Source: Dolomedes plantarius
Taxonomy: Eukaryota > Arthropoda > Arachnida > Araneae > Dolomedidae
Length of the DNA stretch: 64,000 nucleotides
NCBI GenBank assembly: GCA_907164885.2
Contig: OU015499.1
Coordinates: 147,748,118 to 147,812,117 of the forward strand
Reading direction: 5' to 3'
Under the pieces are notes generated by a model, which was given only the letters and a program-made list of their open reading frames with translations, made no database searches and was not told the origin of the DNA. Numbering within the stretch: position 1 is the first letter of the stretch; every line of letters starts with the position of its first letter. Of the stretch, positions 656-41,321 are shown one piece after another. Position numbers and translations under genes: made by a program.

Positions 656-760
656 ATCATTGAGTGCAGAAATAAAATGTTTAAGGAATTGACGAATTAA
701 GAAGTTAAACGTATTACCGGCAGTTACAGAGTTTGGGTCATTGTGTAAAGAAACATCAGC

Positions 761-2700: not shown

Positions 2701-2776
2701 TCTCTGGGATTGAATGGGAGAAAAAATTTTCTCTGCAGAAATTCCACTTGTAAATAAGGATTAAATTCTATTTGTG

Positions 2777-2782
2777 AATAAA
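2777..2782 (+). terminator. polyadenylation signal AATAAA for the zinc-finger gene
   Basis: AATAAA lies about 500 bases after the stop codon, with a second AATAAA near 2806. Both are correctly placed to end this transcript. Confidence 0.5.
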
Positions 2783-3495
2783 GCAAATGAAGTGACAGCC
2801 TTTATAATAAATACACATTAATACAGCTTCAAGAATTATGCAAAAGTGGTTGATTTATTGAAAATGAAGGGAAAATTTGCTACTGAATATTCAAAGTGTG
2901 TTGAAAATACAAGTATTTAAACTTTTCTAAACTTGGACAATAAATCTAAGGAATAGAAATGTTACTCTTTAGCATATTAGTAATCTTTTGCATAGCAAAT
3001 GGTAAACTGACTGGGATCTATACAGGCCCGTAAATAAAAAATGTTTTTCCTTGTGATTTTCTTTAAAAATTTCACTTTGTTTTAAAATGAAATTATGGAA
3101 GATTATTTTAGTAAATAAAATATTAATATTTCTAGTAAAAGGTATTTACAACCTAACAAGATGAAGGTTTTACCAGTATATAATCTTATTAGTTTGTAAA
3201 TTAAATTTAACAGAAAAAACTGGGGAGTTTTTTTTCAACTTCTAAATCTATGTGTATATTGTTTTAAAATAAAACAATAATATAGTATAAATACTTGAAT
3301 ATTTTTATGTTCAAAGTTAACTTATATAGTGGTGTTTAAAGTTAAGAGAATTATCGAATTTTATTGAATTTCTGGATAATTAATGGACTGATTTCAATGA
3401 AAATTGGTATTGATACATAGTTCCATAAGGGAAAAAAAAATTATTCCATAAAACAGTCATGGTACGCTTTCATGATTGTCATTTAGGCTCATCTG
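2783..3495. other. intergenic AT-rich DNA, nothing recognised
   Basis: Only short frames without family resemblance. No tRNA, splice pair or terminal repeat was found. Confidence 0.5.
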
Positions 3496-3865
3496 CATTT
3501 GAATGTCCAAATTCTACCCTGCAAGATGGAACTCAAAGTGACTCAAATTTGGGGTGTGAACACCTATCGCAGTCATACAGCTCTCACCGCACATTGCTAT
3601 ACTGCAAATAGAGCAGACTGATAAATCCCTGTGGCAATTGGTTTCACTCATGGGGCAACGCAGTTTGGGCTCCTAGATGATTCTCGAAGGAGGATGGTGA
3701 GCTGTAATTGCCCTTCCAAGAGTGTCCTAGATATGCTCAATAGGGTTTAGGTCTGGATATCTGGCTGGCCTGTCTATCCGGCGAATATCCTCAATTTCAA
3801 GATAATCATCAATTAGGTTAGCCTTATGTAGACAACATTGTTGTCCACTAAAATTAATTGAGGTC
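3496..3865 (-). mobile_element. Tc1/mariner transposase C-terminal relic
   Basis: Read on the minus strand, one frame gives a block ending in RPARYPDLNPIEHI, then a stop, then DTLGRAI. This is the third catalytic motif region of Tc1-type DDE transposases, with the usual Trp codon changed to TAG. A second in-frame TAG lies about 19 codons downstream, and a frameshift lies at the upstream VDNN motif. Only the last third of a transposase remains and no terminal repeats were identified, so it is a dead fragment. It recurs at 37225-37585. Confidence 0.75.
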
Positions 3866-4092
3866 TAACTGCAGCACTGAAAAGTTGAATATAGGGCTGT
3901 AAGATCTAGTAAGCTAGGAATAAACTAACATGACAGATTCGAACATGAGCGAACTCATAAAAACTCAGCAAATGATCAATGAAGGGAGTTCGAAGTGACT
4001 CATCTAGTAGAAATCTATGTAGAAAATGAGCGAAATAGAAAAAAATATCAGATGATCTGCCGAGGAAAGGTTTCACAAAATCTGCCTTGCAG

Positions 4093-4294
4093 ATCAAAAG
4101 TAAAACCAAGGTGCTGAAGAGAGCGTATAAAAGTACAAAGGATAAATTAAAGAAGAGGGATGCTACATTTTGGCATAATTTTATATATCCTGAGGAATTA
4201 GTCAAAGTCCTAGTATTCCGAGACAGCACCACACCAATAATCCAATGTAACACTGGATTAGAGCATTTAGAAATGTCTAACAATCCTACTACTG
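4093..4294 (+). CDS. candidate internal exon of an unrecognised host gene (exon A)
   Basis: The segment lies between an acceptor (CTTGCAG, 4086-4092) and a donor (G|GTAAGT at 4294/4295) and is open throughout in one frame, including KDKLKKRDATFWHNFIYPEE and TGLEHLEMSNNPTTG. The frame remains open upstream to about 4045, so the acceptor may not be the true 5' edge; the start is uncertain. Joining to the next candidate exon at 4680 keeps the frame open. The protein family was not recognised. The second copy (37818-38018) has frameshifting indels. It could instead be a fragment of an unrecognised transposon. Confidence 0.4.
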
Positions 4295-4679
4295 GTAAGT
4301 GTCGTATTTATTACTTGTATAACATATAATTTAAATAAAAATATTTGTTTTAAAATTTTTTTGTCAATTGCTCAATCCCCATCCTCTAAGCACTTATTTT
4401 TTAGTATAGGACTGTTTAGATTACTGCACTTATTATTATTATTATAGCTATATTGGTTGATTTAGTTTTACATTCATGGTTTTGACACTGTCTAAATCCA
4501 TAGCAGACTGTAGTCTAAATTCCCACTATCTTATATATTTCAAATTTTGGAAATTTAATTCGTTCATTTCTTCACGTATAATTTTCAATAATGTAACTGA
4601 ATTATTAATTTCTTAGTATGTATTGCCCATTATGTATTAAAAAGTTTTAGGTTTAAAGCTTTAAATCAATTTTTTTTAG

Positions 4680-4775
4680 GAAGATGTAGCATTTACAAGC
4701 TGTTCAAAAGGTTGCAGTATAAAATTGTTATACCTCCCGAAAAAAATCCTTGCTATGCCCCTGTTATCAGAAACA
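4680..4775 (+). CDS. candidate exon B, in phase with exon A
   Basis: It follows a strong polypyrimidine acceptor (AG at 4678-4679). Exon A leaves one base over, and with that base this segment reads through GRCSIYKLFKRLQYKIVI and PPEKNPCYAPVIRN. The second copy shows a cleaner donor, CAG|GTAACC at 38496/38497; copy 1 appears to have lost a G there. A possible next acceptor near 5383 would bring an immediate stop, so the gene end is unclear. The function is unknown. Confidence 0.4.
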
Positions 4776-4776
4776 G

Positions 4777-5810
4777 TACCGTAATATTTAACATAAGATA
4801 AAATATGATTTTTTAAGGTCAGAAAATAAAACTAATGATGTTTTTTCCAATATAATTTAGTAAGTGATTTTTCCCCCTTTGTGCATCAAATTTTCCTTAA
4901 TATTTTGATATATATTTTTATATATATTAACAAAATATTAATTTTGTTTAAAGTTAAGACTATATCTGAATTTATATGCAACTATGTATGTATGCAATAA
5001 ACTTGTTTTGGTAGTTATGCATGTAAAATATGCAATGGAATAAGAAAATGAGTGTTAACACACTGAAGAAAATCCCCCCCCCCCCTCCCCTGAGAAAATT
5101 GTGAAATAATGTTCATGGATTTTGAAATGAATCGGTTGGTTTTGAATTTGGTCTGAATTGGAGGATATTGATTTTCATTAAATTCATGTAAAGTAAACTG
5201 AAGTGCCTAGGCCTGACACTAACTTTGGCCATACTGATTTGTTTTTCCTTTAACTATAATATTTTACACAACTTTTAAACTGTAAAACCGAAGCCCATTA
5301 TGTATTAACTGTGATATTTATTACAAATTATTTTGCCTGATCTCAGTCACATGTATAATTTTAAATCTGTGTATTTTTTTTCAGGTTGTGATGTGATTGT
5401 TTGCCTCAACGAGGAGTCTAGTAATCTTTAGAGCAATGCAACCCTCAGCTAAATGTGATGGAGAGTGGCAATATAACAGAGTCTGCAGTTGTCTGGCATG
5501 GGGTATGTTCATGAATAAGCAAAACTTAAGTTAAAAATATCAAGTTTATTCAGATTCAATAAACATTAAAAATATTAAAAACAATATCTGAGAACATTTG
5601 TATAACCAAAATAATCTCACAGAGAGACTTCCTGCACACGAATCTCTCTAGCTCGTGAGTCCAACTATGTGTGCTGCTAGGGGCACCTTTTCTCTAACTC
5701 GAGCGGTATTTATAGAAGCAAGTAAGATAACATTAACATATATTTGCATAAAATGCACTGGAAAGGAAAAATAATAAACCATGCGGAAAATAAATGAAAA
5801 ACCCCATTTC
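4777..5810. other. non-coding stretch with a poly-C run
   Basis: It contains a long C run near 5076-5090 and an acceptor-like site at about 5373-5383, but no supported gene. The last 150 bases adjoin the truncated end of the Tc1-like element and may belong to older repeat sequence. Confidence 0.4.
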
Positions 5811-6629
5811 TCAGATGTAGGACCAGGCGAGATGTTCAACTGCATCGTCATGCTCTTCAAACCATTCTTGAACACACCTAGCAGTGTGGATAGGGGCATT
5901 GTCGTCTTGAAAAAGCGGTCGCTCTCCAGGGAATACAGTCTGGACAAAAGGATGGACATGATCACGTAGAACGCTTAGATAGTGATTGGATTTGATCCTC
6001 CCATGCAGAATAACAAGTGGCCCAAGACCGCGCCAAGATATCGCACCCCATACCATGATGGAGCCACCCCCATGCTTCACAGTCGGCAAGAGGCATTCAG
6101 GATGAAACGCTTCTTTGGACGTTCCCCAGACATAAACGCGTCCGGTCGTCTGAAATAGGGTGAATGACGATTCATCTGACCATATTACCTGTTGCCACTG
6201 CTGTGGGGACCAGCCTTTGTGATCTGTGCACCATTGGCGTCGCTTGAAAGCATTAGTTGCTGTCACCAAGGGTTTACGAATTGCCACTCTGCCATAAATG
6301 TTCGCAGCATGAAGTTCCCTTTTGACAGTTTTTGTTGAAACGGGGTCCTGGAGATGACTGTTCGTTTCGGATGTTATCTCGGATAACGATTGCTTGTGCT
6401 TTCGGGCTACTATGCGCTTCAAGACCCGTCTATCCCTATCAGCAAGCTTGGACTTTCGGCCACTGTTGTGCTTTGAAGATGTCGTCTTACCCTCTTTCGT
6501 GTACGCTGTGATAACGGCTGATACCGTACTCCTTTCAAACCCCAAAAGGTTTGCTGTTTCCGTAACCGATGCTCCACTTAAACGCGCTCCAACTATCATT
6601 CCTCTTTGGAACTCTGACAGGTCTGACAT
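5811..6629 (-). pseudogene. Tc1-like transposase, C-terminally truncated
   Basis: A continuous 272-residue frame beginning MSDLSEFQRG. An N-terminal helix-turn-helix (about residues 1-60) is followed by the catalytic region with the first Asp in IWSDESSFTLF (about residue 150) and the second Asp in FQDDNAPIHTARC (about 240). The expected PDLNPIE-type block with the third acidic residue is absent. The frame leaves homology after EHLAW and ends in unrelated residues. Family members are usually near 340 residues, so this protein cannot have a complete DDE triad. The copy at 39530-40349 is further broken by indels. Confidence 0.8.
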
Positions 6630-6813
6630 TTTAACTTATCACAGACAGTTCGATAGAAGCATGCAACGTAGGTGACTGCTGTTGAGAGACTGATACCTTC
6701 CTCTTCACGCTCACTTGGTGGCAGACTTCTGTTACAGGTGGCGCGGCTGTACTTCAGGTGTGAAATACGTCATACTTTTTCACAGGTGTTCGTATTATTT
6801 TGTACTCCATCTG
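5811..6813 (-). mobile_element. truncated Tc1/mariner element, one terminus present
   Basis: The upstream end of the transposon is probably the stretch ending at 6813: on the minus strand it starts CAGATGGAGTACAAAATAAT next to TA, as expected for a Tc1 terminal repeat. No matching inverted repeat was found on the 5811 side, where the transposase is also cut off, so the downstream third was deleted. Confidence 0.5.
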
Positions 6814-7545
6814 TAGATGTGCGGTCTGCCACTAATTTAATGGCTGGACTTTTATTGCCATGCCAAACAGTCTTTAATATGTGTTTTATCAGGAGCCTAC
6901 TGCCGTCTTTATTTAACTTATTTTACATGCTGTTTTGGAGTAACCTGCTATGTTTTTAAGCTACGCAGCCATGTATGTTATTTTCAAGTGCTAAACAACT
7001 TTAGTAGTTCATTCACCATGCCTTCTTTAGATATGGATATATTCACCGGAGACTTATTTATCATCACTTAATTTTTTTTTACGCCTGTCAACAGTATGTT
7101 TTTCAGATACCGACAAGTTTATTTCTTCTATGTAATTATATATTGATACAAAGTGATACTATAATATGGATACGTGTGTATTTCATCTGTACTGGTAACG
7201 TACATCGTTTATATTCTGTACTTAAAAATTTATAATTGACATTTTTTGGTTTCTATTATGTTTATATTATGAATAAAGTGATTACTTGTTAAAACTTAAA
7301 CCTTCTGTTATTTTTTGTTGCAATACGTTTTAACTTAATACATGACATGCATTATTCCTAGCCTCCGTATATTTAATTTATTTTATGAAGTTAAAGAAAC
7401 GTAGCCATCTTGATTTACCATATCACGCTTCTTCTGCATAACAGTATATACTGCTATTAACTAATTTAATTGCTGGGCTTTGATATACGGCCAACTTGCC
7501 CTATGCCCAACATGAACGCGACAGTGTTATTTGAGACTAGCTAAA
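6814..7545. other. AT-rich spacer, no gene recognised
   Basis: Short frames only. Two loosely similar phrases (around 6833 and 7455, each with CTAATTTAAT followed by TGCTGG- or TGGCTGG-like bases) hint at an old duplicated repeat that I cannot classify. Confidence 0.35.
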
Positions 7546-7610
7546 TACCCGTGCTTCGCTACAGGGTACATTAAAATTAAATACAACAGACAATGTATAC
7601 AATTAATGTC

Positions 7611-7642
<32 letters not shown>

Positions 7643-8774
7643 ATGCCACGGACGCGGGCCGAAGAATGAAGGGCTGAGTGGCATAGTTTTGATTATGATT
7701 CTTCTTGCTTCATCTAATTGAGGGTAAAATGGATGATTTGTCGCCCGACCGTGCATCACAAATGTTTAAATCCATTCCCGCAACATCTTCCACCTCGGAC
7801 ACACAAAACACCACAACTTTTCTAAACTTCATTCTTATTTTCAAGATACACGGAAATACAACATCTCGGGGCAACATACAAATGAAAAAAGCATATCTCT
7901 ACGTGATACCAAACCTTAAAAAAACTTATCTCGTCATGTGATCGTAGTAGGGTTTAATTTTTTAAAAGTTAGGGAAAGGCGTGACTAATGCGCTAAGGCA
8001 TTTAATTTTCTACCTACGCTGCGCAAGGTTTAGTTTTCGAGTAATAGGCCGCCATTTAATATTTTCTCTCGAGGTTATTAGAACTTAGAATCAAAAGCGA
8101 AATTAGTTCGAACGCAACAGGGAATTTAGAATAAATTAGAATTTAAAAGAGTTATAGGATTTTTAATGTTATATATATATATACATAATAAATACAACGG
8201 TAATGTATGCGATTAATTTGTATGTTTAATATCCATAAAACTTACTAATTTGAATTGAATTCTTAAAAACGTCTATCTGAATTAGTCTAGTGGTTAAATT
8301 TTACCTTTTACCGTATTTCAATATTTTTTGTCAATTTATTTCGTTGTTATGCACGTGACGCAAAATTAATTTCAAGTATTGCAAAAAGAAAATAAACCAC
8401 GTGATTAGCGTTTAATAATTTAAATTCGAAAAATTAATTTTTAAAAATTCACCAAAAATCAGAAAATAGAGGTAAATATTCGAAAAAGATTTTAAGGGAG
8501 CTTTTATGATCTTTCTCGGGATATTAATTTTATAACCCTCCAATTATTATTATAAATGCAAATTTTAAAAACTTTATAAAAATGCTTAAAAATTTAATTT
8601 TAAAAAAATCTAAGAAGAATTTTTCAAAAATCTTTCGTAGTGCACTCCTACACTATAAAAAAGAACCACCATGCAAAATTTCAGCCCTTTAGGTCCAGCG
8701 GTTTGGTCTGTGCGGTATCTGTCAGTCAGTCAGTTACGAAACAGTTTTATATAATATCTATATATTATATAGAT
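7546..8774 (+). repeat. dispersed repeat beginning with ACCCGTGCTTCGCTAC, class uncertain
   Basis: The repeat opens with the phrase ACCCGTGCTTCGCTACAGG, runs into an (AT)n tract at 7613-7635, and ends with CAGCCCTTTAGGTCCAGCGG, then GTCAGTCAGTCAGTTACG and a palindromic ATATAATATCTATATATTAT hairpin. The opening phrase recurs at 13709 with Ttt-for-Ttc variation. These phrases are widespread in invertebrate repeats, but I cannot assign the class (a Penelope- or RTE-like non-LTR element or a non-autonomous relative are options). No reverse transcriptase frame was seen. It recurs at 41249-42482. Confidence 0.4.
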
Positions 8775-8852
8775 AAAAACGAAGCACAATCAGTAATTCT
8801 CAATCAATGACGAAGATATTTATAAAAATACGTTTCGTTAGCGGACAGTTAA

Positions 8853-9359
8853 TGTTGTTACCAAATAAACTGTGTCTAATTTTTTTATGTACCTTGAAAT
8901 TTTGCTCTCGGTAATTTTTGCGTACTTCTTTATAGATACTTTTACAATGTATTTAATGCTTCGAGATACTTGAATAAAACTGTTGAACTTTCTAGAAGGT
9001 TTTAGAACCTTGTACTTTACACTACAATAGGAATATTCCACCCGCGAGCTGTCGGTGTCGCCGGCACACGATCTGTAGTTTAGTTGAGTGGAGTGGCAAC
9101 GCCGATTTTTGGCTTCGAGAAAAACACAGTTGAGAGCCACAACGTGCAGACGTGTGCCTCGGTTCTAGATCTACGATCGCCCCACCTTCTGATCTGAGTA
9201 TATACATGTTTGTTTGTGATTCATGTGCGTCCGTCTACGTGTGTAATATAATGTATTAAAAGGATTACTAAGGACTCATCATTCGAAGCTCTCCCACGAA
9301 CTATTTTAGATATCGAAATTTGAGTAGATAGAACAGTCGATACCCCGCTGATCATAACA
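8853..9359 (-). repeat. possible solo LTR
   Basis: On the minus strand the segment runs from TGTTATGATCAGCGGGGTAT to GGTAACAACA, giving TG...CA ends and about 507 bases, typical for an LTR. No flanking target-site duplication was found and no internal retroelement adjoins it. A 100-residue minus-strand frame (8838-9140) overlaps it but has no recognisable domain. The second copy (42561-43067) is almost identical. Confidence 0.35.
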
Positions 9360-10774
9360 TTCATGGATTACTGAGCCAGATTTTTACCTTTCCATGGAAA
9401 GGGAAAGCTACAATTAAAAAAAAGTTTTGAAAAGTACTTATAACCCGTAGACCGAGAATTTTACGCCTGAAAACGACTGTCTCGAGTGACACTATTTCAT
9501 TTTTTCTCGTTTGACTTGCTACATCGTTTGTCTTATGACCGAGAAGTTTGAAGCATGTTGCTTTAAGGTTTTCCGTACCCTTCCCCGTAACGTAAATAAA
9601 TGTAACGTGTGTCTAGACAATTTATCGTTTTATGAATTAGTTGTTATTTCTGTAATTGAAAGTGAATAGAAGGAATCCATGCCTGAAGTTGATACTGAAT
9701 AAATAATGATTTTAAAGAGCATAAAATGAAAAGTCAAATTTTTTACAGAAACAAAAATATCGCAATATCATGGCAACAGCATGAACACTTTTGACAAAAA
9801 GTTTACTTGCTTAAATATAGTTGTAAACAGATATATTTAAAATCTGTATTTTTACATCTGTATTTTTCTGTGTCATAAAGTACAGAGTAATTACCAATAG
9901 AACATGCCTCTTGCAACTTATTCAACTGATATGGGGCCCGCATAATATCTTACAAATTTATTGATGGGGTCCGTGTAAGCACACGGATTTATTAATGTGG
10001 TCATCAGTTCAGAAAAGTTAAAGACCCGAAAACCTTCGAGTCCCTGAGAAAGCATTTTTGTAATATATTTTGTCCTCTTCCATAGTTGTTGATAATCACA
10101 AATACACTTTCTTTTCTGAAACTTTCTTGAAAAAAGAAGTATGAGTTCACCATAGAAAAAATTATTTTTTAAAATATCACTATCCGAGTAACGAAGTTTG
10201 GGTGAATATTTTCATATATGGGAGCAATGTTTTATACTTTTAGGCTTGGGTCATCAAATAAAATTCTTTCTGTCAAGGAAAAACAAAATTTCTAATTCTG
10301 GAACTGAAAGAGAAATGTTTCTACCTAGAAATGATATGGTCTTTTTTCGACATCTCACAAAAATGTCTACCTATGAATGCATGGGGATGAAAGCAAATTT
10401 CGGATCCAAATCGCTTTTTCAAGAGTTATGATTTAGATTCCGCTTTAGTCTCAAGTGTTATGCTTTAGTAATTATTATCCAGTGTTATGCTTACTGCCAA
10501 AATTAACTTTACGATGACTCCACTAAAATATCCCGGGCTTGCATTGTTACACCTTAAATCAAACTAGGTTTCATTGTTTCATTGTAATTAAAATTCCTAT
10601 TTTTAAGAGTTTTATCTTTAAAAAGTTTTATATTCAAAAGTTTATTGAATTGAGTATTTTCCATTATTTTAAGGTATCCTATACCATCCATTTATAACAC
10701 GTGTAAGAACGAGTGTATCTGCAAACTGCCATATTCCCGAATCATTTTAACACTATACTATCGTCATAGAAAAT
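9360..10774. other. AT-rich spacer, no gene recognised
   Basis: Nothing beyond short frames. Two short phrases (ATTTATTGATGGGGTCCG and ATTTATTAATGTGGTC, 9957-10002) are near-repeats. The same region at about 43070-44485 is practically identical. Confidence 0.45.
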
Positions 10775-10782
10775 GCAAGTAC

Positions 10783-11634
10783 TAGGGATGCGACATCGAT
10801 GTTTTGATAAAAAAATCGATGTTTCAACATCGATTTATTGAAGCCGGTGTTTTTTTAACATCGATATTTTGTGCTCGATGTTTTACGTTGTCTCGATTTT
10901 TTTTTTTTTTTAATGAAAAAGTACCGTAATAAAAAAAAATACCACGTAGCATAATTTTCACATTCAGTAAATGTAAGTCTGAATTCTGAAAAGGAATAAT
11001 ACAAAAGGGGGAATGATTCCTTAGCAAACAGACAAATGGCAATTAACAACCAATGAACCTATCAGAGCGCTTGGAATGTTCCTGAAACTCCAGAACTTTC
11101 CATGGGGTTTTATTTTACAAATAGTATATACACGAGTGCATCCATTTAAGTTTTTGTTTTGTTCTGGTTTTATATAAGTTGACGTTAATACGTATTATTA
11201 GTAAGATGCCTCCCAAAAGTACCGTTCGGAAATATTTTTACAAAACCACTGAAAAATTGGCGAAATGCAATATTTGCCTTAAGTCCCTCAAAACTTCTGG
11301 CAATACCACGAATTTATCTGGACATTTGAAGGAAAAACATGGCGGCATTTACAACGAGAATTTTGAGTCATCAATGTAGCCCAAAGCAATTAAGTTTTTG
11401 TCATTTATGCCTGCCCAATCAGAGAGTAAAATTAAATCACCCCTCGCCCCACGACTAACGGAAGTAACATTAATGTTAGAGATTACTAAACCAGTTTTTA
11501 AAAATGGATGTTCTAAAACATCGATGTTTAAAACATCGATGGTTTTTGGGCGATTTTTTATTAGCATCGATGTTTTAATATTGAAAATCGATGTTTCAAA
11601 ACATCGATGTTTTGTTATCGATGTCGCATCACTA
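10783..11634 (+). mobile_element. small hAT element with ATCGAT-rich subterminal repeats
   Basis: The termini are inverted: TAGGGATGCGACATCGAT on the left and TAGTGATGCGACATCGAT read inward from the right. They are flanked by an 8-base target duplication, GCAAGTAC (10775-10782) and GCAAGTTC (11635-11642), one mismatch. Both ends are packed with variants of ACATCGATGTTT, a palindromic-core repeat as found at transposase-binding subterminal regions. The 852-base interior codes only for a BED finger. An 8-base duplication plus BED finger supports hAT membership. The copy at 44494-45345 is nearly identical. Confidence 0.8.
11206..11379 (+). CDS. lone BED-type zinc finger, remnant of a hAT transposase
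   Basis: A 57-residue frame starting MPPKSTVRKYFYKTTEKLAK with the pattern CNIC (two Cys), then SGNTTNLSGHLKEKHGG (two His). This is a BED finger, the DNA-binding N-terminus of hAT transposases and ZBED proteins. I chose the ATG at 11206, about 30 bases after a TATATAA motif at 11171-11177. A TAG ends it just after the finger. A further 30 or so residues of likely transposase linker lie in another frame (11398 onward). The catalytic RNase-H-like and dimerisation domains are absent. If expressed it could only bind DNA, possibly the element's own ends; this last point is inference. Confidence 0.65.
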   Translation: MPPKSTVRKYFYKTTEKLAKCNICLKSLKTSGNTTNLSGHLKEKHGGIYNENFESSM

Positions 11635-11642
11635 GCAAGTTC

Positions 11643-13556
11643 ATGACTTCAAGAGTAAGTTTTTGTTAGTTTCTTACGTAACCAAATAAAAATTCCCGAC
11701 GAATGTCCTATATTTTTCGATCAGCTTTGCTGATTTTTGTCTGTGCGTTCCAAAAAAGACTATTCATCTTCACTAAATTTGACGCGGAGACAAGAGTTAT
11801 TCTTTTGTTAGGCGGCCATAATATTTCAGTTCAGTTTTTAAAAGAACTAACATAATATATTTCATATACTGTGTAAAGCCCACTCGCAACTTTTGAGATA
11901 TGAATTCATGAGCTAAACATGATCCATAAAAAATTGGGTCCAAGTCATAATTTTAATGCAAGAGACAACAAGAAAATTAACTTTACGATGACTTGTCTAT
12001 AACTAGAAACTATAAATTCAAGCACGCAGTGTTAGTTATTTTTCATTCGCATAGAAGATCGATTACAAAATTTAACTTCAATGATAATTCAGTGAAAAAT
12101 AATCTCTGTTAGCAAGAGAAACATTTGTAGATGTACAAAAATTGAAATTAAAAGCTGTTTGAACCTACTACTAAACGACTTTACTTATTTTTTTTCCATT
12201 TTCGCCACTTTTTTTATTCGTATTTTTTTTTTAAATTGTTTCGTTGTCCCTCTCCGATATATCTTTTTTCGTATTTAAATTGGCGACAGATTCTGACTCT
12301 AAATTTGTCCAGCTATAAATAATTTTTTCTACTTCTGTTACACCGCCTGTAAAAAAGGGTTTCTTGACGCCATTAAAACGTACTCACCAAGGAAAGCTTC
12401 TAAATTTTCTTAAAAGCGAAACCAGTGATAAAACTTGTCTTGCATTTGCATTACCTTCATTTGTTACGTGTATTCTCTTTTAAACACAGAAAATTTAGAA
12501 AAGAACTTAAGATTCGCTTTGAAAGGTTTTTTTTTTTGACATATTTACAGAGAACTTCATAAATATTTGAGTATGTCACAAGTTTGCTCATGTATGGATG
12601 TTCTAAATCAGTGATTCTAAACCTTTTTGTCTGCCAAAACTCTTAAATCTAACGTCAAAACAATAATATTTTCAAATGTAGATATTTCTGTTCTTTATGT
12701 ATGCTCAAGATGGGTCAAGTGCATAAATTTCTGGAAAAACACGTATTTCCCTTTTTCAGCTTAAAACATGCTAAATCTTTTAGAATCAAACAAAACGGAC
12801 AGATTGTCTCTAAGATGATTACTTTGCCAAACGCAGCGTTTATATTCAGTACTGTCTGTGAGTACACTACTATTTATGAGTACTTTTAAGTCCGCTTACC
12901 TCGGAATAGAATATTACGATTGACTTAAAAAACAGTTGATCTAAAGATAGTTGCAAAATATCTCTGAGAAATTTTGTAGAGCATATCTTTATTCCATTAA
13001 TCTTAAACAGTCTTCAGGGTTTATAATTTAGACTAAAATTTCTGAAAATAATTGAACTCGGAAAAAAAAAACCACCACGAAAAGATAATCCTTTATACTG
13101 TTTTAAAATTTTTATGTATAAGATATTTGAAATACCAGACAAATTATCTAGAAACTTTCCAGCGCAAAATGTGAAAGAAATATATGCAAATAAGGTTATT
13201 GGCTCTTCGAATCTATATAAAAAAATAAACATGAATTAAAATTTAAATTTATAAGTTTCAGTTTGTTAATTCGTGTAGGAGAAATTTTCTCTATGGTAAT
13301 AAGTCACTTTAAAAAATCCGTACAAATTGTAAGTAGACAAAAAAATTAAATTTCTTTGTTCTTAACTGCTCTTAAAGAAAACGGAAAATGCATATAAATT
13401 AAAAAAATATTTATAACCTGATTTAGGTGTTTCGATTTCTAATCCACCAGTTGTTCTCATTTTGACAAACAATTATAAATTCACAAGATCAGTTATAAAG
13501 AAAAAAAACTGGCCGTCCTCTTGGAGTAGTAATTATCAAACTTACTGTAATTGACT
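11643..13556. other. AT-rich spacer, no gene recognised
   Basis: Several T- and A-runs and short frames only (for example 12701-12889). They are preserved in the second copy simply because the two copies are almost identical here. Confidence 0.45.
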
Positions 13557-13596
13557 TACTGTACTGTTATGGCATGCTTGAATACTGTACTGTTAT

Positions 13597-13657
13597 GGCA
13601 TGCTTGAAACTTCATTTTATGAATGTACCATTCATAAAATAAAGTTTCAAGCATGCC
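13597..13657. repeat. 61-base near-perfect palindrome (hairpin), orientation differs from second copy
   Basis: The left arm GGCATGCTTGAAACTTCATT and its partner ending AGTTTCAAGCATGCC fold into a long stem with a few-base loop around 13625-13628. The left outer part is itself preceded by a direct duplicate of TACTGTACTGTTATGGCATG. At 47311-47371 the same palindrome reads as its reverse complement (see findings). Confidence 0.85.
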
Positions 13658-13700
13658 ATGCCGAGTATTCAATGTTATCTTTTCTGCATTTATATATTAC

Positions 13701-13774
13701 TTAGCTGAATACCCGTGCTTTGCTACGGAGTACATTCAAATTAAAGACAATGGTCAATGTATGCAATTAATACC

Positions 13775-13829
<55 letters not shown>

Positions 13830-14068
13830 GGTACAAAACCTGATAAATATAAATTTAAGAAGATGAGAAGAATAAAATATAATGATAAACAGAAGTTCTG
13901 CTATACGTCTACCGGCTATACGTAATGCACAATCACGCTGCATTTCTAATCATTTGCATATCTCCCCGACATGTACCTTCATTGCAAGTTTCGTTACGAT
14001 CCCGCAATTATTTCTTGGTGCGCTAATTTTTTTTGTCCATGAGTATAATATATATATATATATATATA
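13701..14068 (+). repeat. second ACCCGTGC repeat with two long (AT)n tracts
   Basis: It opens GAATACCCGTGCTTTGCTAC, followed by the same ATT-AAA-GACAATG-CAATGTATGCAATTAAT layout seen at 7551, then (AT)n at about 13781-13825. A mid part (13905-14040) leads to another TA tract at 14047-14068, into which the Tc1 element was inserted. It recurs at 47414-47782. Confidence 0.45.
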
Positions 14069-15491
14069 CACTGCTGGCCACCCAAATTGCAACACCAAGA
14101 AAGACAAGAGATATGACAACAAAAATTATTTTGTAGATAACATGTTGGCCAAGTATCAAATGATTAAATTTATAGACTCCTGTGAAGTGTGGTTCCTGCC
14201 AAAATCAGTAGCCAGAGTAGCCGCCATTGTTGGAGATCACCGCTGTCACACGCCTCGGCATTGATTCAAAGAGACTTTGGATGAGTTCTTGGGGTACAGC
14301 AGACCAAGCAGCTTCCACACGTTACCAAAGTTGATCTGCTGTGGAAGCTGGGGATGGAATCTGGGTCAATCGTAGAGCAACCATGGACCACATGTTTTCT
14401 ATCGGCGAAAGATCCGGAGAGAGAGGCGGCCAGGGAAGCAATTCAATCTGGCGATTGACGAAGAACCGTTGGACAATGCGTGCCACGTGTGGTCGCGCAT
14501 TATCCTGTTGAAATATGGCTGTGGGCAAGCCCTGAAGGTAAGGAAGGACAACTGGCTCCACACCTCGGAGATGTAGCGCTGGCTGTTTAAAGTACCCGCA
14601 ATGCTTACTAGAGGTGTGCCAGAGTGATATCCAATACCGCCCCATACCATAATACCCGGTGCAGGACCAGGTGTGGCGGTGCATAACGCAGCTGGTTCAG
14701 CATCCTCTCTTCACGGTGTCTCCAGACTCGAATGCGACCATCGTGGTGTTGCAGACAGAAGCGTCACTCGCCAGTAAAGACAATTCCATTCCAGTCTGAT
14801 TCTGGCCGTCCACATCATTCTGTCATCGGCACCATTGGCGGCGGAGACGTCTGTGGTTCTGCGTCAAGGGTAGACAAAGCAATGGACCGTCTTGCGGACA
14901 GACCACTCTGCTGTAAACGGCGTCGAATGGTACGCGCAGACACTGGATGATGCGTTACAGACTGCATGTGCTGTGCTATGGTTTCGTGAATGTGACTGAG
15001 CAGATCCGTCACTGCCATGCGCACAATTTGCCGGTCATCACGTGAAGTGGTGCGCTTAGGTGGATGCGATCGAACACGCCGGTCCGTCGTACCGGTCCTG
15101 CATCCAACGATCACATATCCGCATTGCAGTTGTTTGATTTCGTCCAACACGACTACCGATTTCCCTGAAAGATAATCCACAAATCTCGGGAGGCCACTAT
15201 CCTTCCTCTGTCGAACTCGGAACTTGATCAAAAGATGATCGCTGTTTCGACGAGGCCATAATTGATCGTTTTTTTGAAAAAACCACAAGAAAAACACAAT
15301 TGCCGAACTTGAAATCGTCGAAATCTCCAAGCCTTAAATAGCGCTTTGAAGTGGCGCCACAGGCGCGCGTGATGTGCGTCTGCGCTGAAATTCTAATCAT
15401 TTGCATATCTCACCTCCGCAAATGCATGTTGTAAATTTCATGTTATTTGCATGTTTCCTTCAGGGTGTTGCATTTACAGTGGCCAGCAGTG
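14069..15491 (-). mobile_element. full-length Tc1/mariner element inserted in a (TA)n tract
   Basis: Terminal inverted repeats are CACTGCTGGCCACCCAAATT on the left and CACTGCTGGCCACTGTAAAT read inward from the right, both bounded by TA inside runs of TATATA. The 1423-base length and single minus-strand transposase are typical of Tc1 elements. The second copy is at 47783-49190. Confidence 0.9.
14205..15259 (-). pseudogene. Tc1 transposase, inactivated
   Basis: The gene spans about 350 codons, the normal family length, from ATG at 15257-15259 to a stop at 14205-14207. Recognisable parts are an N-terminal helix-turn-helix (clean in the second copy: GLSFREIGSRVGRNQTTAMR), the second catalytic Asp in FQQDNARPHVAR, and the third motif SPDLSPIENMW. 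Lesions shared with the second copy: the first catalytic Asp is Gly (codon at 14770-14772), TGA follows two codons later at 14764-14766, and TAA sits at 14322-14324. Copy 1 has further frameshifts in the N-terminal half. Confidence 0.85.
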
Positions 15492-15493
15492 TA

Positions 15494-16076
15494 TATATAT
15501 ATATGAAAAAAAAAATAAGGCCTTGATATGCAACGAAAGAGCAATGAATAAAATGATTTTAAATTTGTGGAAACAGCAGTTACAAATATTTTCATAATTC
15601 TGTGTTCAGTTTATTTCAAATATTTATAATTCACTATGTTAAAGTACTAGAAGCTCTTTTTTCCCCTTTTAGCCAAAATAACCTATTTTAAAAGCAACTA
15701 GCAAAGATTAGAAATGGTTTCATGAAATTATTGGTTGAAATCTCACACATAACAAAATGTAGAATGAATATGTTTAAAAAAAGTTTTAACATAGGCTAAT
15801 ATTTCACTGTGATAATACATATATGAAAATACTTCGATTAAGGAGGATATGAAATAAAATAATTTTCAAACTTTAGCTAAATGTTAAAATATTAACATTG
15901 TTGTATTCCGTTATATGATCTTCTTAGATAAAGAGTTATTGATTGTAACATTAAAAAAAAAGTCTCTGATAAAATGAATACACTGAAGATGTGATATCCT
16001 TGATTCAGTTACATACCTTAACAAAAGCTGGTAGAAATAGCTTTGCTGTGAGGACCGCGCTGGGTTTACAAGAGTA
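15494..16076. other. AT-rich spacer, no gene recognised
   Basis: No open frame of interest. A frame at 15991-16203 runs into the adjoining MITE and is not a gene. Confidence 0.45.
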
Positions 16077-16078
16077 TA

Positions 16079-16411
16079 CAGTCAAACCCCGTTATAACGA
16101 ACTTCAAGGGACCAAAGGTTCTGTTCGCTTTATCCGGTGGTTCGCTATATCCGAACCGTTAAAGAAAAATGCTATAGAGTTCACAAAATGTATAACTCAT
16201 TAGTTGCAATGTGTATTCAATAATAATGCATTAAAAATTTATAAATCTATTAAAATGATCATTAATGAATTAAATCAACTAAAATCGATTACATTAAACT
16301 GACACAATACTAATTAAATTACTTAAAATAGGAAAACGGCGAAACCAAAATTTTCTTTCGTATATCCGTGAGTTCGTTATATACCGGGTTCGCTATAACG
16401 GGGTTCAACTG
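16079..16411. mobile_element. pogo/Tigger-type MITE
   Basis: A 333-base element flanked by TA, with inverted ends CAGTCAAACCCCGTTATAAC and CAGTTGAACCCCGTTATAGC (read inward). The CCCCGTTATAACGAAC phrase is typical of pogo/Tigger-related elements. There is no coding capacity; it was probably mobilised by a pogo transposase elsewhere. The second copy is at 49776-50109. Confidence 0.8.
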
Positions 16412-16431
16412 TATATATTTTTACAGGGTTA

Positions 16432-16567
16432 GGTCCTGTTCACATCGAATTCGTCAGCTCAGTGTAAAGATTCCGTTGGCGTTGATTGGTTAAATAGTTC
16501 AAAGATCGGTATATGATTGGTTAAAATATTTTACGCTGACACTGATGGATTCTATGTGAAGATGGCC
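16432..16567. mobile_element. PIF/Harbinger-type MITE, 136 bases
   Basis: It is flanked by TTA on both sides (16429-16431 and 16568-16570), the TWA-type target duplication of PIF/Harbinger elements. Imperfect inverted repeats occupy nearly the whole length: GGTCCTGTTCACATCGAATT against GGCCATCTTCACATAGAATC. The second copy is at 50130-50265. Confidence 0.7.
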
Positions 16568-17489
16568 TTATACAGGAGTATATTATAATCGTATTAGTTG
16601 GTACCAGTCAAAACATAACGGCTAGATAGTAAATAAATGTACTAACACACAAATTATGCTCAACACATCTTGCCAAATGCAGGGGCGTTCCAACCCGGGG
16701 GTGCCAGGGGTGCGGGGCACACGGGCGGCAAGTCGGCCGCCCGGTTGAAAAAATTTTAAAACAAATTTATTAGTAAAATAATTAATATAAAAATATCATT
16801 ATGCAAGGTAACTACTTAGAGGGTAAAAATGCATTTTACAAGTATAACTGGAAAGCACATTGGTTTTAAAAACGCTGCTCCACGTCGCAACCAGTTGGGA
16901 AATAAATTGTGCGTTTTTTATTTTAACGCGTTTTAAAACCCATCATCCCTCAAATCGTGCGCATCGCCGGCATCGCGTTGGTGCGGGCGGTTTTTGGTCA
17001 GGTTGTAGGAAAATACTCGTTTATGCCCTATCCTATAAAGTACAAGGACCGGGATAATTTGGCACTATATTAATTTGAACGTGTCCATCTCAACAACTGA
17101 AAAACAGCTTTATGTTTTCGAATTTATGTGCTCGATTTTGTGATTGCTGACCAATAAAAATATTTCAGAGGTAAGTAACTTGATATTCTTTCTTTTGCGC
17201 GGTTAGCGGTTCGAATTGAAAATAAATACATTTATGGTTTGATATTTATTTTGCAAAAAAAAATTTTAAAAAAAGCTAGGATTCATTACTTAATTCTATT
17301 ATAAAGGTTTTTTTTTTTTATTTTTGCAAATGTTAAACATATACTACAGGAACAAGTGTAAACTTGATTTTTGAACTGCATCACCTTATTTCTTTAACAG
17401 GTGCGTGAAATATGGCAAAATTTTTCAGAAATCGGGGAAATATGAGTTTTTTTATTAAAGTAAATGTAGGGGATATTGTATTTAAAATA

Positions 17490-18209
17490 TGAACAAAATT
17501 AAAATGAAATCGATTTGGAACGTTTCCTTTTGCAAAATTCAATCTTTATCGAGAAACAGCTTAACTTACATTGCGCCTATTTTATAAGTTCTTTATTTGA
17601 CTACGAATGTAAAGATGAGGCTCCAAAAAATCCAGAAGACCACTTCAAAATTAATTTTACTTTGAAATATTGGACACTGCATTATCAAAATAGGAGAAAG
17701 GTTCGAACATATAAAAGAACATCATACAGTTTTCATTTTCTCAACGACCTAATAATTTCCTTGAAACAGATAAATCAAATAGATCTACAAAATGTAAATC
17801 TGTGGAAAGTATGTTACATGATCCGTTTAAAAAATGAAAAAGATATTACAGCTGAAGATTTATGCGATGAAATTGACAACGTTGCAACCCTATATTTCAC
17901 CTGAAACGAAACGCGTTAAATGTGATTCAATACCTATTTACAAATAACCTCGTCTATATGTTTCCAAATTTAGTGACTTCCATACGAATTTTTTTAAACA
18001 TTACCTGTGACTGTGGATAGCGGGAAAAGAAGCTTTCCAAAACTTAAAATGATAAAAAATTATTTGAGATCAACAATGGAACAGAAAGGCTTTCAGACTT
18101 ATCTATTATTAGTATCGAAAATATAGATACAATATTAGATGTATCAGATATTATAACAGAATTTGCATTAAAAAAAGTAAGAAAAGCAAAGATTATTGAG
18201 GCTTTTTGA
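17490..18209 (+). pseudogene. C-terminal part of a hAT transposase (ZMYM1-like/DUF4371 type)
   Basis: Across frames broken by single-base indels, the segment reads KNPEDHFKINF..ILDTALSKIGERFEHIK, then the hAT dimerisation block with VTSIRIFL, RSFPKLKMIKNYLRSTM, LSDLSIISIEN and DIITEFALKKVRKAKII, ending at TGA 18207-18209. This C-terminal pattern is known from the hAT transposase group related to zinc finger MYM-type protein 1. The N-terminal zinc-finger and most of the catalytic domain are missing from the 0.8 kb between here and the left terminus, so this was already an internally deleted element. Copy 2 (51182-51903) has a longer intact opening frame. Confidence 0.75.
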
Positions 18210-18413
18210 CTGACTATTGAGCATATGTATTAATACAAGTAGATATATGTTGTATGTATTTAATAAAACGTATTCGTTTTGATTATTATATCAATACATT
18301 AATAACTATTATTATGTTGGGTTTTATAAAATTAAAAAATAAACTGAATTTATAATATTTTCTGTAATTTGTTCTATTTAAGGTAAAAAATTTCAGATAA
18401 ATTTCAAGTAATC

Positions 18414-18785
18414 TGTAGAAATCACGATGTGGTGATTGTCATACATAATACTCCAAAAAGAGTCATCTCAGAAGGTTTTTCTTTAAACTCAACAATTCGA
18501 TTTTATTTTTCTGTAGGTAAATAATTACAGAGAGGAAAATATTGTAGTGCGATTAATATTCACAAGCCGCGAGCCGCTATCTGACCAACAGGTGTCAGTG
18601 TCTAGTACGGACCAACTATCGCTTGAACTCGCGTGAACTACTGACCAGAGTCATCTTTACTTCGCTTCTTCGCGCGCATCTGCCCATGCGCAGTGTTTGC
18701 GGAGCAGACGCCAGCGCATGTATCCATACGCTGATGTTCGCTAGCGCTGACATCTAGCGGCGCTGAAAATAAAGAGTTCCCTACA
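18414..18785 (-). repeat. 3' LTR of the gypsy element
   Basis: 372 bases with TG...CA ends (TGTAGAAATCACGATG to GAGTTCCCTACA on the plus strand). It closely matches the other LTR except that it lacks the MITE. It contains an AATAAA-type motif near its transcribed end. Confidence 0.9.
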
Positions 18786-18801
18786 GTACTCCTCCCCCAA
18801 G
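18786..18801 (-). other. polypurine tract
   Basis: Directly next to the 3' LTR, the minus strand reads TTGGGGGAGGAGTAC, the purine-rich primer site for plus-strand DNA synthesis expected in this position. Copy 2: 52480-52495. Confidence 0.75.
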
Positions 18802-18819
18802 TACCGAAGGTACGAGGAG

Positions 18820-21800
18820 TTAAAGGTACGGTGGGTTAAAGCGGACATGCCTTCCAGAGCGTGTAACAGTAGTTGGTACACTCTGGAGATCCTGCTGGTC
18901 CCTAGAGGAGGTTGGCGGTAATGCATCAGGAGTAGGCCAAATCGTCGTGTTTGGGAGGAACCATGAGGAAGTCACGATATCTTTGTTTGCATCTGCCATG
19001 AAAAATGCTGGGTTCAAACGGTCGAGGTTGATGACAGATTGTGAACCGTTGACCGAGCAATGTAAATGCGTTTGTGTTCGAGCAACGATTTGTATGGGTC
19101 CCACTATAAGGAGGTTGGAGAGACTTCTTCACTCCATCGCGTCGGATGAAAGCATGAGATCAGGTCTCAAGTGCAGGATGCTGTGAAAATTCTGCTTTTA
19201 TTGTGTGCAGACGTTTGTGTAGGAGCCAATGCTGTGCATTAGCTGTCGCAAATGTGTACGAAAAATGGCTGGCTCCTCCACTGGAGCTGCTGAGGGAGAG
19301 ATAAGCTCACTGGTAGACTTAGAGTAGAGCCATAGACCAGTTCTTAGGTCGTACACTGTAGGTCATTTTTAATGCTGACCGAAGTCCTATCAGAACCAAC
19401 GGAAGTGTTTCTGTCCACTTGATGGTTCGGTAGCACATCAGGGCTTTGTTTCAACGATCGGTGGAAACGCTTCAACAAGTCAAGTGCTCTGGGGATGGTA
19501 CGGTGTCGTACGGATGCTCCGCGTGCCAAACAAAGACGTTCAATGATCGAACAACGACGATTAGAACTGGCGACCCTGATCCGTCGTGATCCACAGATGG
19601 TACGCCAAACCGGGCAATCCAGTGATTTAGGAAGGCACGGGCGACGGTCTCCGCTGTTATGTCACCAATAGGAATAGCTTCAGGCCATCTGGTGAATCTA
19701 TCGAAGCACGTCAACAGGTAGCAAAAACCATTCGAAGGTGGCAAGGGCCAACCAAATCCACATGCACATGATCGAACCTCTGATTCGGAATCGTGAATGC
19801 TTGGATGGGACAATGGTTATGCCTCGATACCTTTGATCGTTGGCAGTCAATGCAGGAACGGGCAGGGCCTTTTTATCGCATGGGCCAAATCGGGACTTTG
19901 CCCAGGGCCCCCTGATGCTAGGGGCCCCAAAACCCCCTTGTGGTATGCACCTCTATACTTCTAATAGTATGTATTTTTATAAGATGTCCGTAAGGGGGAG
20001 GGCCCCCAAATAGCATCTGCCCAGGGGCCCCCAGCGTTCATAATCGGGCCCTGGGAAGGGGTCAACTCGGCAACATCTTTGAAATTGCCGGCCAGATATA
20101 TGCGCTCCAAGACGAGTTTCTTAGTTGCACGAATTCCTGGATGCGACAGATTGTGCAAAGAACAAAATATTTTCTTACTGCAGGTTGGTAGGTACATATG
20201 GTCTGATTTTAGTGTTGCTCGTGTCACAACTTATAAAACAGTTTTGAGCCAACTTTAATGGACAGATGTTGTAGTGAGCACATTAGAGGTCTTTCAACAG
20301 ACGTTGTAACTCACTATCGTCTTTTTTGAGCTGCAGCGAGTGGAGCAAAATCACACTGGTACAGATGTTATCGATTGTTTCGATGCGTGTCAAGCATCGG
20401 CCACACATGTCATGACCCAGGAAATATCCTAATGTCCGTGCTAAACTGAGCTATAAATTCTTTTGCCTTAATTGTCTGGGGGAATCGGAATTTGAATTTT
20501 GGTGAAAGCGTATGGTAAGAGGTCGATGATCAGTGAAAATTGAGAAGGATGAGCCTTCGAGATCATCTCTAAAATTTTATAGCTGCGTATATGGCGAAAG
20601 CTCTCTGTCGTATGTACTATACTTCTGTTCCGAAGAGGGAAAGTTTTCGAGAGAAAAAAGCTAGCGGCTGAGGGCCATTAGTACTTTGAGCATGTAAAAC
20701 TCCTCCAATAGCGATGTCAGACGCATCAACCGTTAGAGAGAGTTTTGGTTAGGGGCACGGAAACATAATGTTGTCAGCATTCACGAGAAAAGATTTGCAT
20801 TTGGCAAGGCAGCACAGGTTTCGTCAGTCCACGGGACGGGACGATTATCGTTCTTTTTTGAGTCTTTAAGGAATTCGTGGAGAGGAGCTTGCGTGTTCTC
20901 TGCGCTTTTGGAAGGAAGCGACGGTAAAAATTAATCATAGCGAGGAAACGTCTCAGCTGAGAGATAGTATCAGGCATCGGAAAATCCGAGATAATTTGGG
21001 TTTTTTTTTGGGGAGAGGTTTTACTCCAGAAGGGGTGATTAAGCAACCCAAAAAGGACACAGATGATTTACCAAGTACACATTTGGAGGGGTTCAGTTTT
21101 AACCCATATTGCTTTAAGCGATCGAATACTTGCCGAAGGTGTTTCAAGTGATCGTTTTCATTGTCTGACGCAATAAGGATGTCATCAAAATACGGGACGC
21201 AAAAGGTCAAACCAGACAACACCTGATGAATAAACCTTTGAAATGTTTGCCCTGCGTTACGTAGACCAAAGGGGGTGGACAGGAATTCGAAGAGACCAAA
21301 TGGAGTCGTGACTGCGGTCTTGGGTATGTCTTCGGGATAAACCGAATTTGGTGGTAAGCGCGAGCCAAGTCCAAGGTTGAAAAATATGTTTTCCGAAGAA
21401 AATTTGAGTGCAATCCTGTATGTGAGGGACTGGGTATCGATCAGGAATTGTCACCGAATTTAGACGACGGTAGTCGCCACATGGACGCCAGTCGCCATTA
21501 GCCTTTTTAACCCATGTGCAGGGGACTTGCCCATGGGCTTTTGAGGGACGAATGATGCCTTGAGACAAAAGGAACTCAAATTCCTGACGTGCAGCCCGGA
21601 GAAGTTCCGGAGACAGACGCCGGGGCTTTGCAAATACGGGAGGTCCTTTAGTTTCAATATGATGGAAAATAGTTGATGGTTGTATGTTATTAGAATTTTG
21701 ACATTGGGTTAGCAAGTACTCTATTAGAAAATTGAGAGGGGTTAGTAAGTTCTGGGTACGTGCTTAGGATTTTTTCAAATTTAGAATCCCCTACAGAATG

Positions 21801-22219
21801 AAATATTCGTGCTAAGAGGGTTTATCATTAGGGGTTTTACCACCATAGGACAATTTGGTCTCGGCATCAATTAATCTATTGTTTTTTTACGTCAACTAAT
21901 AATTGAAATGTTTGAGGAAATCGGAGCCTATGATGGTTGGCTTACGTCGGCTATGACAACGACCACTGAAAAGTACGGCGTAAATGTAATCCAATGTCAG
22001 GAGTTTGGTACCAAAGGTAGATATTTCGGAACCATTGGCCGCGAAAAGGACTAAACTGTCACGAGCTTTTTGCCTGAGGAGTGATACGTCGAGGAATGAC
22101 TGAGATATCGGCGCCGTATCAATAAGAAATTCTAACATAGTAACGGATCAGCCAAAAGAATGCGATTAACGTGGCGAGTCGCGGGTATGGCCATCAGGCG
22201 ACCGCCGATCTAGTTTCCC
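18820..22219 (-). pseudogene. gypsy pol polyprotein, frameshifted copy
   Basis: Fragments in different frames, in order from the high coordinates: protease (partly garbled), reverse transcriptase with [12 protein letters not shown], RNase H remnants, integrase zinc-binding segment HNLSHPGIRATKKLVLE, integrase core, and C-terminal tail ending FNPPYL. Integrase is split by a MITE at 19863-20053. Nearly every break is a one-base indel absent from copy 2, so most look like sequence error; the MITE and the TAA in the CTT-stop-ELVYG segment are shared and real. See 52514-55900 for domain positions. Confidence 0.8.
19863..20053. mobile_element. hAT-type MITE inside integrase
   Basis: Ends CAGGGCC with flanking GGAACGGG (19855-19862) and GGAAGGGG (20054-20061), an 8-base duplication that is exact in copy 2. 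The interior is rich in GGGCCCC-type inverted segments. It interrupts the integrase frame after the H2C2 zinc-binding region. Confidence 0.8.
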
Positions 22220-23007
22220 GAATTACCGAACGTACATGGTGGATTGCACTTTCTTGCATTAGAACCGAAAATTAGTGTGATAAAACACTGGTTGTTTGAG
22301 GGTTCTTTATACTGCGATTTCTTCCGCGGGACTGACTACGCCTTCTGCGTGTTGCCCGTTCGTGCGCCTATCCTGGGAACGTCCACGCTCATGTACTAGG
22401 TGTAAAGTTCGCTGACCTTTAACTGAGCAATTTGTAGCTCCAGGTGGGAACTTTGTGGAAAAACAGCTGAATTTATACCAGGAGTATAAGCTAGGTCTGA
22501 TATCCTTGTCACTGTTACTTGCCAGTTTGGGGCAAATTCTCGTTTTAGCGCTGCAGGATACGCTGGTGTGAGTAGGGAGCCCGAAAGCCAAAGAGACTTT
22601 AAGAGAGGGTTCACCTACCGTCGTCGCCGGCGAGAGACCGCATACGGGTGAGCAACTGTGACGGGCGTTGATCGCCAAGTTCTATTCCTTGTAAGAGACG
22701 GCGAATTTTCGATTCTTGACTCTCGGAATGTAATTCAATCAAGCGATTCTTTAGGGTCCTATATCTCTCCTCTGCCGGAGGTTTCAAATAATATCACTAA
22801 CGGTGTTGAGGATCTCTGAATCAACAGCGAAAGCACATGATGATACATGGTTTTGGTCCGCTGTGATTCCGGCTATCTCAAACTGTGCCTCAAGCTGGCG
22901 CAAACCATATTGTTGGATTAACCTTCCAAAATGGCGGGGGTTTTACTGAAACGCGAGCGACCACTGGGATCTGCCAACGCATGCATCTTCTGGTATAGGT
23001 AAGACAT
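22210..23007 (-). pseudogene. gypsy gag, frameshifted copy
   Basis: This corresponds to the cleaner gag at 55891-56689. It is broken by one-base changes, but near 22400 it carries the reading that keeps the frame open ([12 protein letters not shown]), where copy 2 has one extra base. The GGGAAAC slip site is at 22213-22219 (minus strand). Confidence 0.75.
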
Positions 23008-23593
23008 ATTAAATGGAATGACACAGTAAAAATGCAAAGTATTTTAATTTCTATACAATAAGATAAGGGTAGTAACACTACATCATGCAATAAAGTTAAC
23101 ACAATAAATGCAACATAATATAAGGTAATTATGCAATAAAGTATAAGATAAAGCTGAGTTCAATATTTAAATAATCTACGCAAAACCCCAGTCAATGCCG
23201 TTAGATGGAGTCATTACCTACGCTTTTCAACAAAATTTCTGAACGTGCAGGAAATGGGAAAAAATATGGTAGAAAATGAGCTTACCTTGCGTGTTGATTA
23301 TGTCAGGTAATCCAAATGTAAACAAATCATAACTCACCAGCACGGAACATTAGAAATTCTGGAACCTGTGATGGAGAAATAAAAACCACGTGCATGAGTT
23401 CGACGGAAAAAAAATCACGTTTTTGGTTTTCGTGAAAATATGCACCACAATTAAAAAAATACAGGAAATAACTGGTGAGGAGAGGAACTAGGTCTTTCGT
23501 AAACACAAACAGACAGCACTTCACAATAAAAATACTGCGCGGGATGATGATGAACGTGGATATCATATCCGAGGAAGTTGGAAACACGTGTTT

Positions 23594-23610
23594 GCAGGGG
23601 CCGGTCACCA
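23594..23610 (-). other. primer-binding site
   Basis: Two bases after the 5' LTR the minus strand reads TGGTGACCGGCCCCTGC. It begins TGG, complementary to a tRNA CCA end, in the correct place. I could not assign the tRNA with confidence. Confidence 0.6.
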
Positions 23611-23612
23611 TT

Positions 23613-24171
23613 TGTAGAAATCACGATGTGGTGATTGCATACATAATACTCCAAAAAGAGTCATCTCAGAAGGTTTTTCTTTAAACTCAACAATTCGATT
23701 TTATTTTTCTGTACGGTAAATAATTACAGAGAGGAAAATATTGTAGCGCGATTAACATTCACAAGCCGTGAGCCGCTATCTGACCAACAAGTGTAAGGGC
23801 CTGTTTCACATAGGAGTCCGTTGCATTGCGTTAAAGAAAAGATGACGTTGAGACGAAATAAACCATCATAGCGTTAAAATTCCATTGCTAATCGTTTTGG
23901 AGGCATATCATTGGTTTATTTTCGTCTCAACATCATCTTTTCCTTAACGCAACGCAACGGACTCCTATGTGAACAGGCCCTAAGTGTCTAGTACGGACCA
24001 ACTATCGCTTGAACTCGCGTGAACTACTGACCAGAGTCCTCTTTCCTTCGCTTCTTCGCGCGCATCCGCCCATGCGCAGTGTTCGCGGAGCAGACGCCAG
24101 CGCATGTATCCATACGCTGATGTTCGCTAGCGCTGACATCTAGCGGCGCTGAAAATAAAGAGTTCCCCACA
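23613..24171 (-). repeat. 5' LTR of the gypsy element, enlarged by a MITE
   Basis: Same sequence as the LTR at 18414 plus a 184-base insertion and TAA duplication at 23794-23983, giving 559 bases. The promoter for the genomic transcript should lie in this LTR; I could not mark its start. Confidence 0.9.
23797..23980. mobile_element. PIF/Harbinger-type MITE inside the 5' LTR
   Basis: Fold-back element with inverted repeats of about 65 bases (GGGCCTGTTCACATAGGAGT at each end) and TAA on both sides (23794-23796, 23981-23983). The uninterrupted target is visible in the other LTR. Copy 2: 57473-57658. Confidence 0.88.
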
Positions 24172-24432
24172 AATCCATACGGTATGAGGGGGGGGGGCAA
24201 AATTATTCTCACACAAGGGCGGCAGCTACCCTAGGAACTGTCCTGGCCAAATGTTAAAATCGTAATATTAAGAATATACAAATACACTTTAAAAATTACT
24301 ATTGAATCCGATAAAAAGAAATGTGGTTACTGAACAGGGCGAAATAAATAATTTTCCGTTAGGTTTCATTTTATATCTCACAAACATAATTAAAAATAAA
24401 AATGGCAGAGAGAGAGAAAGAGAGAGAGACCC

Positions 24433-30717: not shown

Positions 30718-30720
30718 TAA

Positions 30721-41248: not shown

Positions 41249-41321
41249 CTAGCTAAATACCCGTGCTTCGCTACAGGGTACATTAAAATTAAATACAACG
41301 ACAATGTATACAATTAATGTC

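Follow-up and report, generated by a model that had tools for sequence, protein, structure and literature searches.

A probable template switch behind a flipped palindrome in a tandem array of Dolomedes plantarius

One of four copies of a near-perfect palindrome in a tandem array of Dolomedes plantarius differs from the others by an inverted core. The flipped palindrome was probably produced by a single template switch during replication in vivo. Read in this way, the change would be a clean, fully resolved single copying slip resembling seven mutations.

Tandem array and its contents

The window, i.e., the whole analysed stretch of 64,000 nucleotides, corresponds to positions 147,748,118-147,812,117 of contig C9 in an assembly of 2.78 Gb and 390 contigs. 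The first-pass annotation had reckoned with two copies of the palindrome, and the assembly has four. A whole-genome DNA search, the counts of which are lower bounds, located the palindrome at at least four places ~33.3-33.8 kb apart, designated C0, C1 (at 13597), C2 (at 47311) and C3. These places belong to a tandem array of four copies, each unit measuring ~33.7 kb. The array is tandem over ~147,713,014-147,849,675 of the contig, and its ends are rearranged. Unit C1 occupies 1..33755 of the window and unit C2, which extends past the window, 33756..64000, both on the plus strand. A dispersed repeat was rejected as an identity for the palindrome, since the same search, with its counts as lower bounds, gave matches only at the four array places.

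At the C3 end of the array, a 3-kb segment is followed by its own inverted copy (147,839,522-147,842,544 and 147,843,457-147,846,481 of the contig); the two are 98.9% identical and lie ~0.9 kb apart. A dispersed repeat (13702-13806 and 7538-7639, 85% identical) shows on its minus strand a short hairpin beside CTAG or CTAA, which may resemble the 3' end of a Helitron. An LTR-like repeat, found in one piece at 18411-18785, is matched at 96-97% by 23610-23794 together with 23983-24171. It is split there by a palindromic stretch of ~187 bases (23796-23981, and 57472-57659 in C2), as it would be by an inserted MITE.

Looking for a site-specific recombinase switch, which would involve a dedicated recombinase nearby and repeated flipping, covered the one flip among four array copies and a Pfam scan of 6 of the 22 ORFs. 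The scan returned a C2H2 zinc-finger array, DDE transposase remnants, a retroelement protease and RT, and DUF7041, with one ORF lacking a match. The retroelement gag had 264 matches; of the 120 listed, those named to species came from spiders and scorpions and from one fruit fly, which makes an arachnid source likely. Rfam gave no match at gathering score within the window. Viral relatives were considered on the basis of a 16-mer matching five IMG/VR stretches; the similarity ends at 16-21 bases and was taken as chance.

Comparison of the palindromes

The palindromes at 13597..13657 in C1 and 47311..47371 in C2, compared in direct orientation, differ at 7 of 61 positions (C1/C2): C/T at 17, TAC/GTA at 30-32, A/G at 45 and CA/TT at 56-57. 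The first-pass annotation had listed the C/T, loop and A/G differences, all of which are present, and had omitted the pair at 56-57. Its count of 59 of 61 positions agreeing between C2 and the reverse complement of C1 was reproduced on recounting, the mismatch being confined to 56-57. The flanks, which it had described as keeping their orientation, are indeed unchanged and identical over 100 bases on each side. Upon folding, the arms comprise 29 bp, or 31 if the outer AT is counted, and those of C1 contain one C.A mismatch (17/45). The loops had been given as GTACC versus GGTAC; they do differ, but the folded spacer is only 3 nt long, TAC in C1 and GTA in C2. The hairpin fold of the strand is stable in both copies (z -12.4 in C1 and -10.6 in C2).

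The palindrome of C3 equals that of C2 letter for letter. C0, which is more diverged here, agrees with C2 and C3 in the GTA spacer, G45 and TT at 56-57, and differs from them in C17 and one additional left-arm base. With C3 and C0 as outgroup copies for the ancestral state, the C2 state is thus held by both at the spacer, 45 and 56-57, while at 17 C0 is identical to C1. TAC, A45 and CA are confined to C1 among the four copies. Since the states of the spacer, 45 and 56-57 are private to C1, this copy is evidently the derived one and the only one flipped. Among the differing positions, only 17 has the same base in C1 and C0. C2 and C3 have T17, the complement of which is A45, a base present in C1 alone. 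C17 of C1 could have been inherited from a C0-like state and owe nothing to the event; A45 would then be unexplained.

Other changes occur next to the palindrome. A 26-bp tandem duplication is common to C1-C3 and missing from C0; on the plus strand of C1 (13557..13608) the unit is present twice and its second copy ends 12 bases inside the left arm, and C2 has the same duplication (47271..47322, plus strand). C0 carries 12 private substitutions in the 400 bases around the palindrome (aligned to 13278-13677 of the window), far above most of the C0 unit, and these could mark either a conversion tract or clustered mutation next to the hairpin.

Single-switch reconstruction

An enumeration was performed in which an interval of 5-89 bases was replaced by the reverse complement of a nearby interval of equal length. 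Over 261 bases, 77 breakpoint choices turn copy 2 exactly into copy 1, whereas the same enumeration gave no single switch that leads back from copy 1 to copy 2. In palindrome numbering, the replaced segment begins at base 7-17 (13603-13613) and ends at base 57-63 (13653-13659), so that the widest interval which one template switch may have rewritten in C1 is 13603..13659. The source lies at least 2 bases leftward. The change of the spacer from GTA to TAC is an exact reverse complement, with 17 and 45 also exchanged, and the change from TT to CA at 56-57 is templated by TG at 5-6, one arm being overwritten by the other. The relation between the two sequences and the exact one-event fit, with C1 as the derived copy, are thereby apparent at the level of the sequences.

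The proposal of one event instead of several point changes was borne out, in that the core is inverted and the flanks are not. Within the 61 bases, 9.5e11 seven-substitution sequences can be derived from copy 2, of which 4294 can arise by some single local template switch, i.e., a share of ~4.5e-9. Independent point changes would have to reach this share by chance, and C1 has just one further private substitution at 8.2-14.6 kb; even if C17, being common to C1 and C0, might be retained, such an origin is extremely improbable. A perfect GGTACC centre that underwent paired homopolymer losses was also considered and disfavoured, the GTA spacer being alike in C0, C2 and C3.

Plain reciprocal inversion of the core fits 59 of the 61 positions, a separate change being needed for CA/TT at 56-57. 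Microinversions with flanking inverted repeats are known (PMC8755829). Such an inversion would nevertheless require two events, the second of which coincidentally copied the opposite arm, and not one of the 77 exact solutions has a source identical to its target, as a plain inversion would. Furthermore, homologous recombination is described in PMC8755829 as requiring 50-250 bp of homology, and the arms in question measure 29 bp. The inversion plus a second change is accordingly very unlikely, and the plain inversion, leaving 2 of 61 positions, was rejected. Bases 56-57 are left over by inversion and explained, as is the core, by a switch; they thus appear to be the most informative bases, revealing the arm overwriting and fixing the direction. 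The simple inversion with which the first-pass annotation had covered every change therefore misses 56-57, and one non-reciprocal template switch covers all seven.

Proposed mechanism

In the template switch that we favour, the growing end, while copying the left arm, would leave its template and anneal to the complementary arm carried by the opposite parental strand. It would then copy backwards through the core and the outer left arm and rejoin its own template beyond position 57. The outcome would be an inverted core (17, 30-32 and 45) and a right arm overwritten by the left one (TT to CA at 56-57). Described by four points from left to right, the event departs at 6-16, lands at 45-55, departs a second time at -1 to 5 and returns at 58-64, and the mirror case is alike. 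The landing is ahead of the departure whichever the replication direction. According to PMC7954356, such a landing point cannot result from a switch onto the nascent strand and implies an inter-strand one. By this rule, the other parental strand or another array copy would have been used. The event presumably took place in vivo, in germline replication, and within one fork rather than onto another array copy; from these sequences, a strand of the same fork and another array copy cannot be told apart as templates.

The breakpoint of the 26-bp duplication, which is older, 12 bases inside the left arm, fits stalling at the hairpin, which is only suggestive. In a broader version, the palindrome would be a hotspot of replication stalling that is repeatedly flipped and perfected, both orientations would segregate among array copies and individuals, and the 26-bp duplication and the C0 cluster would be further scars. 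This extension is considered unlikely.

Other palindromes were compared for flips of the same kind. The comparison included ten palindromes, i.e., nine of the 14 listed for C1 and the long inverted repeat at 23796, and left out three TA runs and two palindromes overlapping 11514. Among these ten, 0 of 8 other asymmetric palindromes were flipped; the palindrome at 7612 is perfectly symmetric and hence uninformative on flipping. A 24-mer scan of the 12 ordered copy pairs, without low-complexity words, retrieved only the palindrome studied here and a slight case in the long inverted repeat of C3. The latter, which consists of one substitution (matching the partner arm) and a one-base gap, was not accepted as a template-switch event.

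Consensus noise and reality of the flip

Indel events between C1 and C2 number 391, and 303 of these fall in homopolymer runs. A further 113 events are of the substitution type and include some misaligned indels. Most of their differences other than the flip look like consensus noise. Private differences were assigned from the four copies with the palindrome excluded, only C0, C1 and C2 being compared past 28.3 kb. C1 has 1.10 private events per kb before 14,550 and 15.2 per kb after it; for C2 the figures are 16.8 per kb before unit position 8,750 and 0.96 per kb after it. One contiguous 28-kb stretch of poor consensus at 14,550-42,505 stands out from a much cleaner array; its private events, largely homopolymer indels, amount to 15-17 per kb. 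Low coverage or a false duplication in the assembly would account for this stretch. The 29 isolated private substitutions found in it include 16 T>G versus 4 A>C (p 0.012), a lopsidedness which reads of a single strand would give. The earlier suggestion that at least some differences between the copies are real alleles rather than noise was too broad: the copies are places in an array, and the differences other than the flip are mostly indels (391 versus 113) concentrated at 14,550-42,505.

Both palindromes are outside the poor stretch, that of C1 by 0.9 kb. At 8.2-14.6 kb, C1 has seven private substitutions, of which the palindrome holds six. Given this position and this concentration, random consensus error does not appear to be the source of the flip, and the position outside the poor stretch favours a real flip. 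Around the palindrome C1 shows ~2 private events per kb versus 0.14 per kb further left, so its read support there may be thin.

The template switch could instead have been an in-vitro one, made by a strand-displacing polymerase while the library was prepared or sequenced, and have survived because this part of C1 rests on few reads. It would leave an identical trace, the flipped form is absent from every other copy, and the quality of C1 is intermediate here and very poor from 14,550. Against it, the palindrome is 0.9 kb outside the heavy noise, and the asymmetric palindromes within the noise (23796, 26472, 26557, 26623 and 29519 in C1 and 3144 in C2) are unflipped, which leaves the in-vitro origin rather improbable. 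Mirrored strand-specific read errors at the hairpin, with the copies called mainly from opposite strands, could be supposed from the failure of Nanopore reads at long inverted duplications (PMC7229812) and from the strand-lopsided substitutions of the noisy stretch. They are nonetheless highly improbable: C2 and C3 are alike in every base of the palindrome and C0 largely has the state of these two, CA/TT at 56-57 is unmirrored, and nearby, outside the palindrome, C1 has errors of one inserted or deleted base and a single substitution (12496). The preferred reading remains a template switch in replication.

Comparison with known systems

An event of this type would be misread in the dating of duplicates or in variant calling by substitution counts. 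The tandem array supplies its own outgroups, and the direction of the event can be read inside one genome.

In chloroplast DNA, small inversions are associated with hairpins; the loop between inverted repeats flips and the flanks stay, often recurrently in this organelle. The palindrome of C1 similarly has a flipped loop and kept flanks, with one flip among four copies.

The flip in C1 reads as a new case of a class documented in PMC8604942, namely spacer inversions in which template switching also homogenises the arms. That class has inverted-repeat arms of >9 bp around a short spacer, and the C1 palindrome has 29-bp arms around 3 nt; the spacer is an exact reverse complement, the arm is overwritten and the ancestral state comes from an outgroup. 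Among the ten spacer inversions that this source reports for S. cerevisiae, one, REG2, ascribed to intermolecular template switching, shows arm homogenisation and seven substitutions, and the other nine lack the homogenisation. Both REG2 and the C1 palindrome have a short inverted repeat, a short, exactly inverted spacer, an overwritten arm, unchanged flanks and seven substitutions. Unlike the yeast cases, which concern genes compared between strains and have arms of 10-16 bp in the table of PMC8604942, the present one is non-coding, has longer arms, lies between tandem paralogues and is a single case known from an assembly.

The template-switch mutations of great apes (PMC7954356) share with it the four-point description and the landing ahead of departure that denotes an inter-strand switch. 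They were obtained between species with a pair hidden Markov model, whereas one locus was treated here by exact enumeration. Human-chimpanzee microinversions of 17-33 nt with flanking inverted repeats (PMC8755829) likewise present a short inverted segment between inverted repeats, copied precisely. In a pure microinversion, as defined in that source, a segment is replaced by its own reverse complement and nothing else is changed; none of the 77 solutions is of this form. Those microinversions are mostly pure, whereas the event in C1 would also have overwritten an arm.
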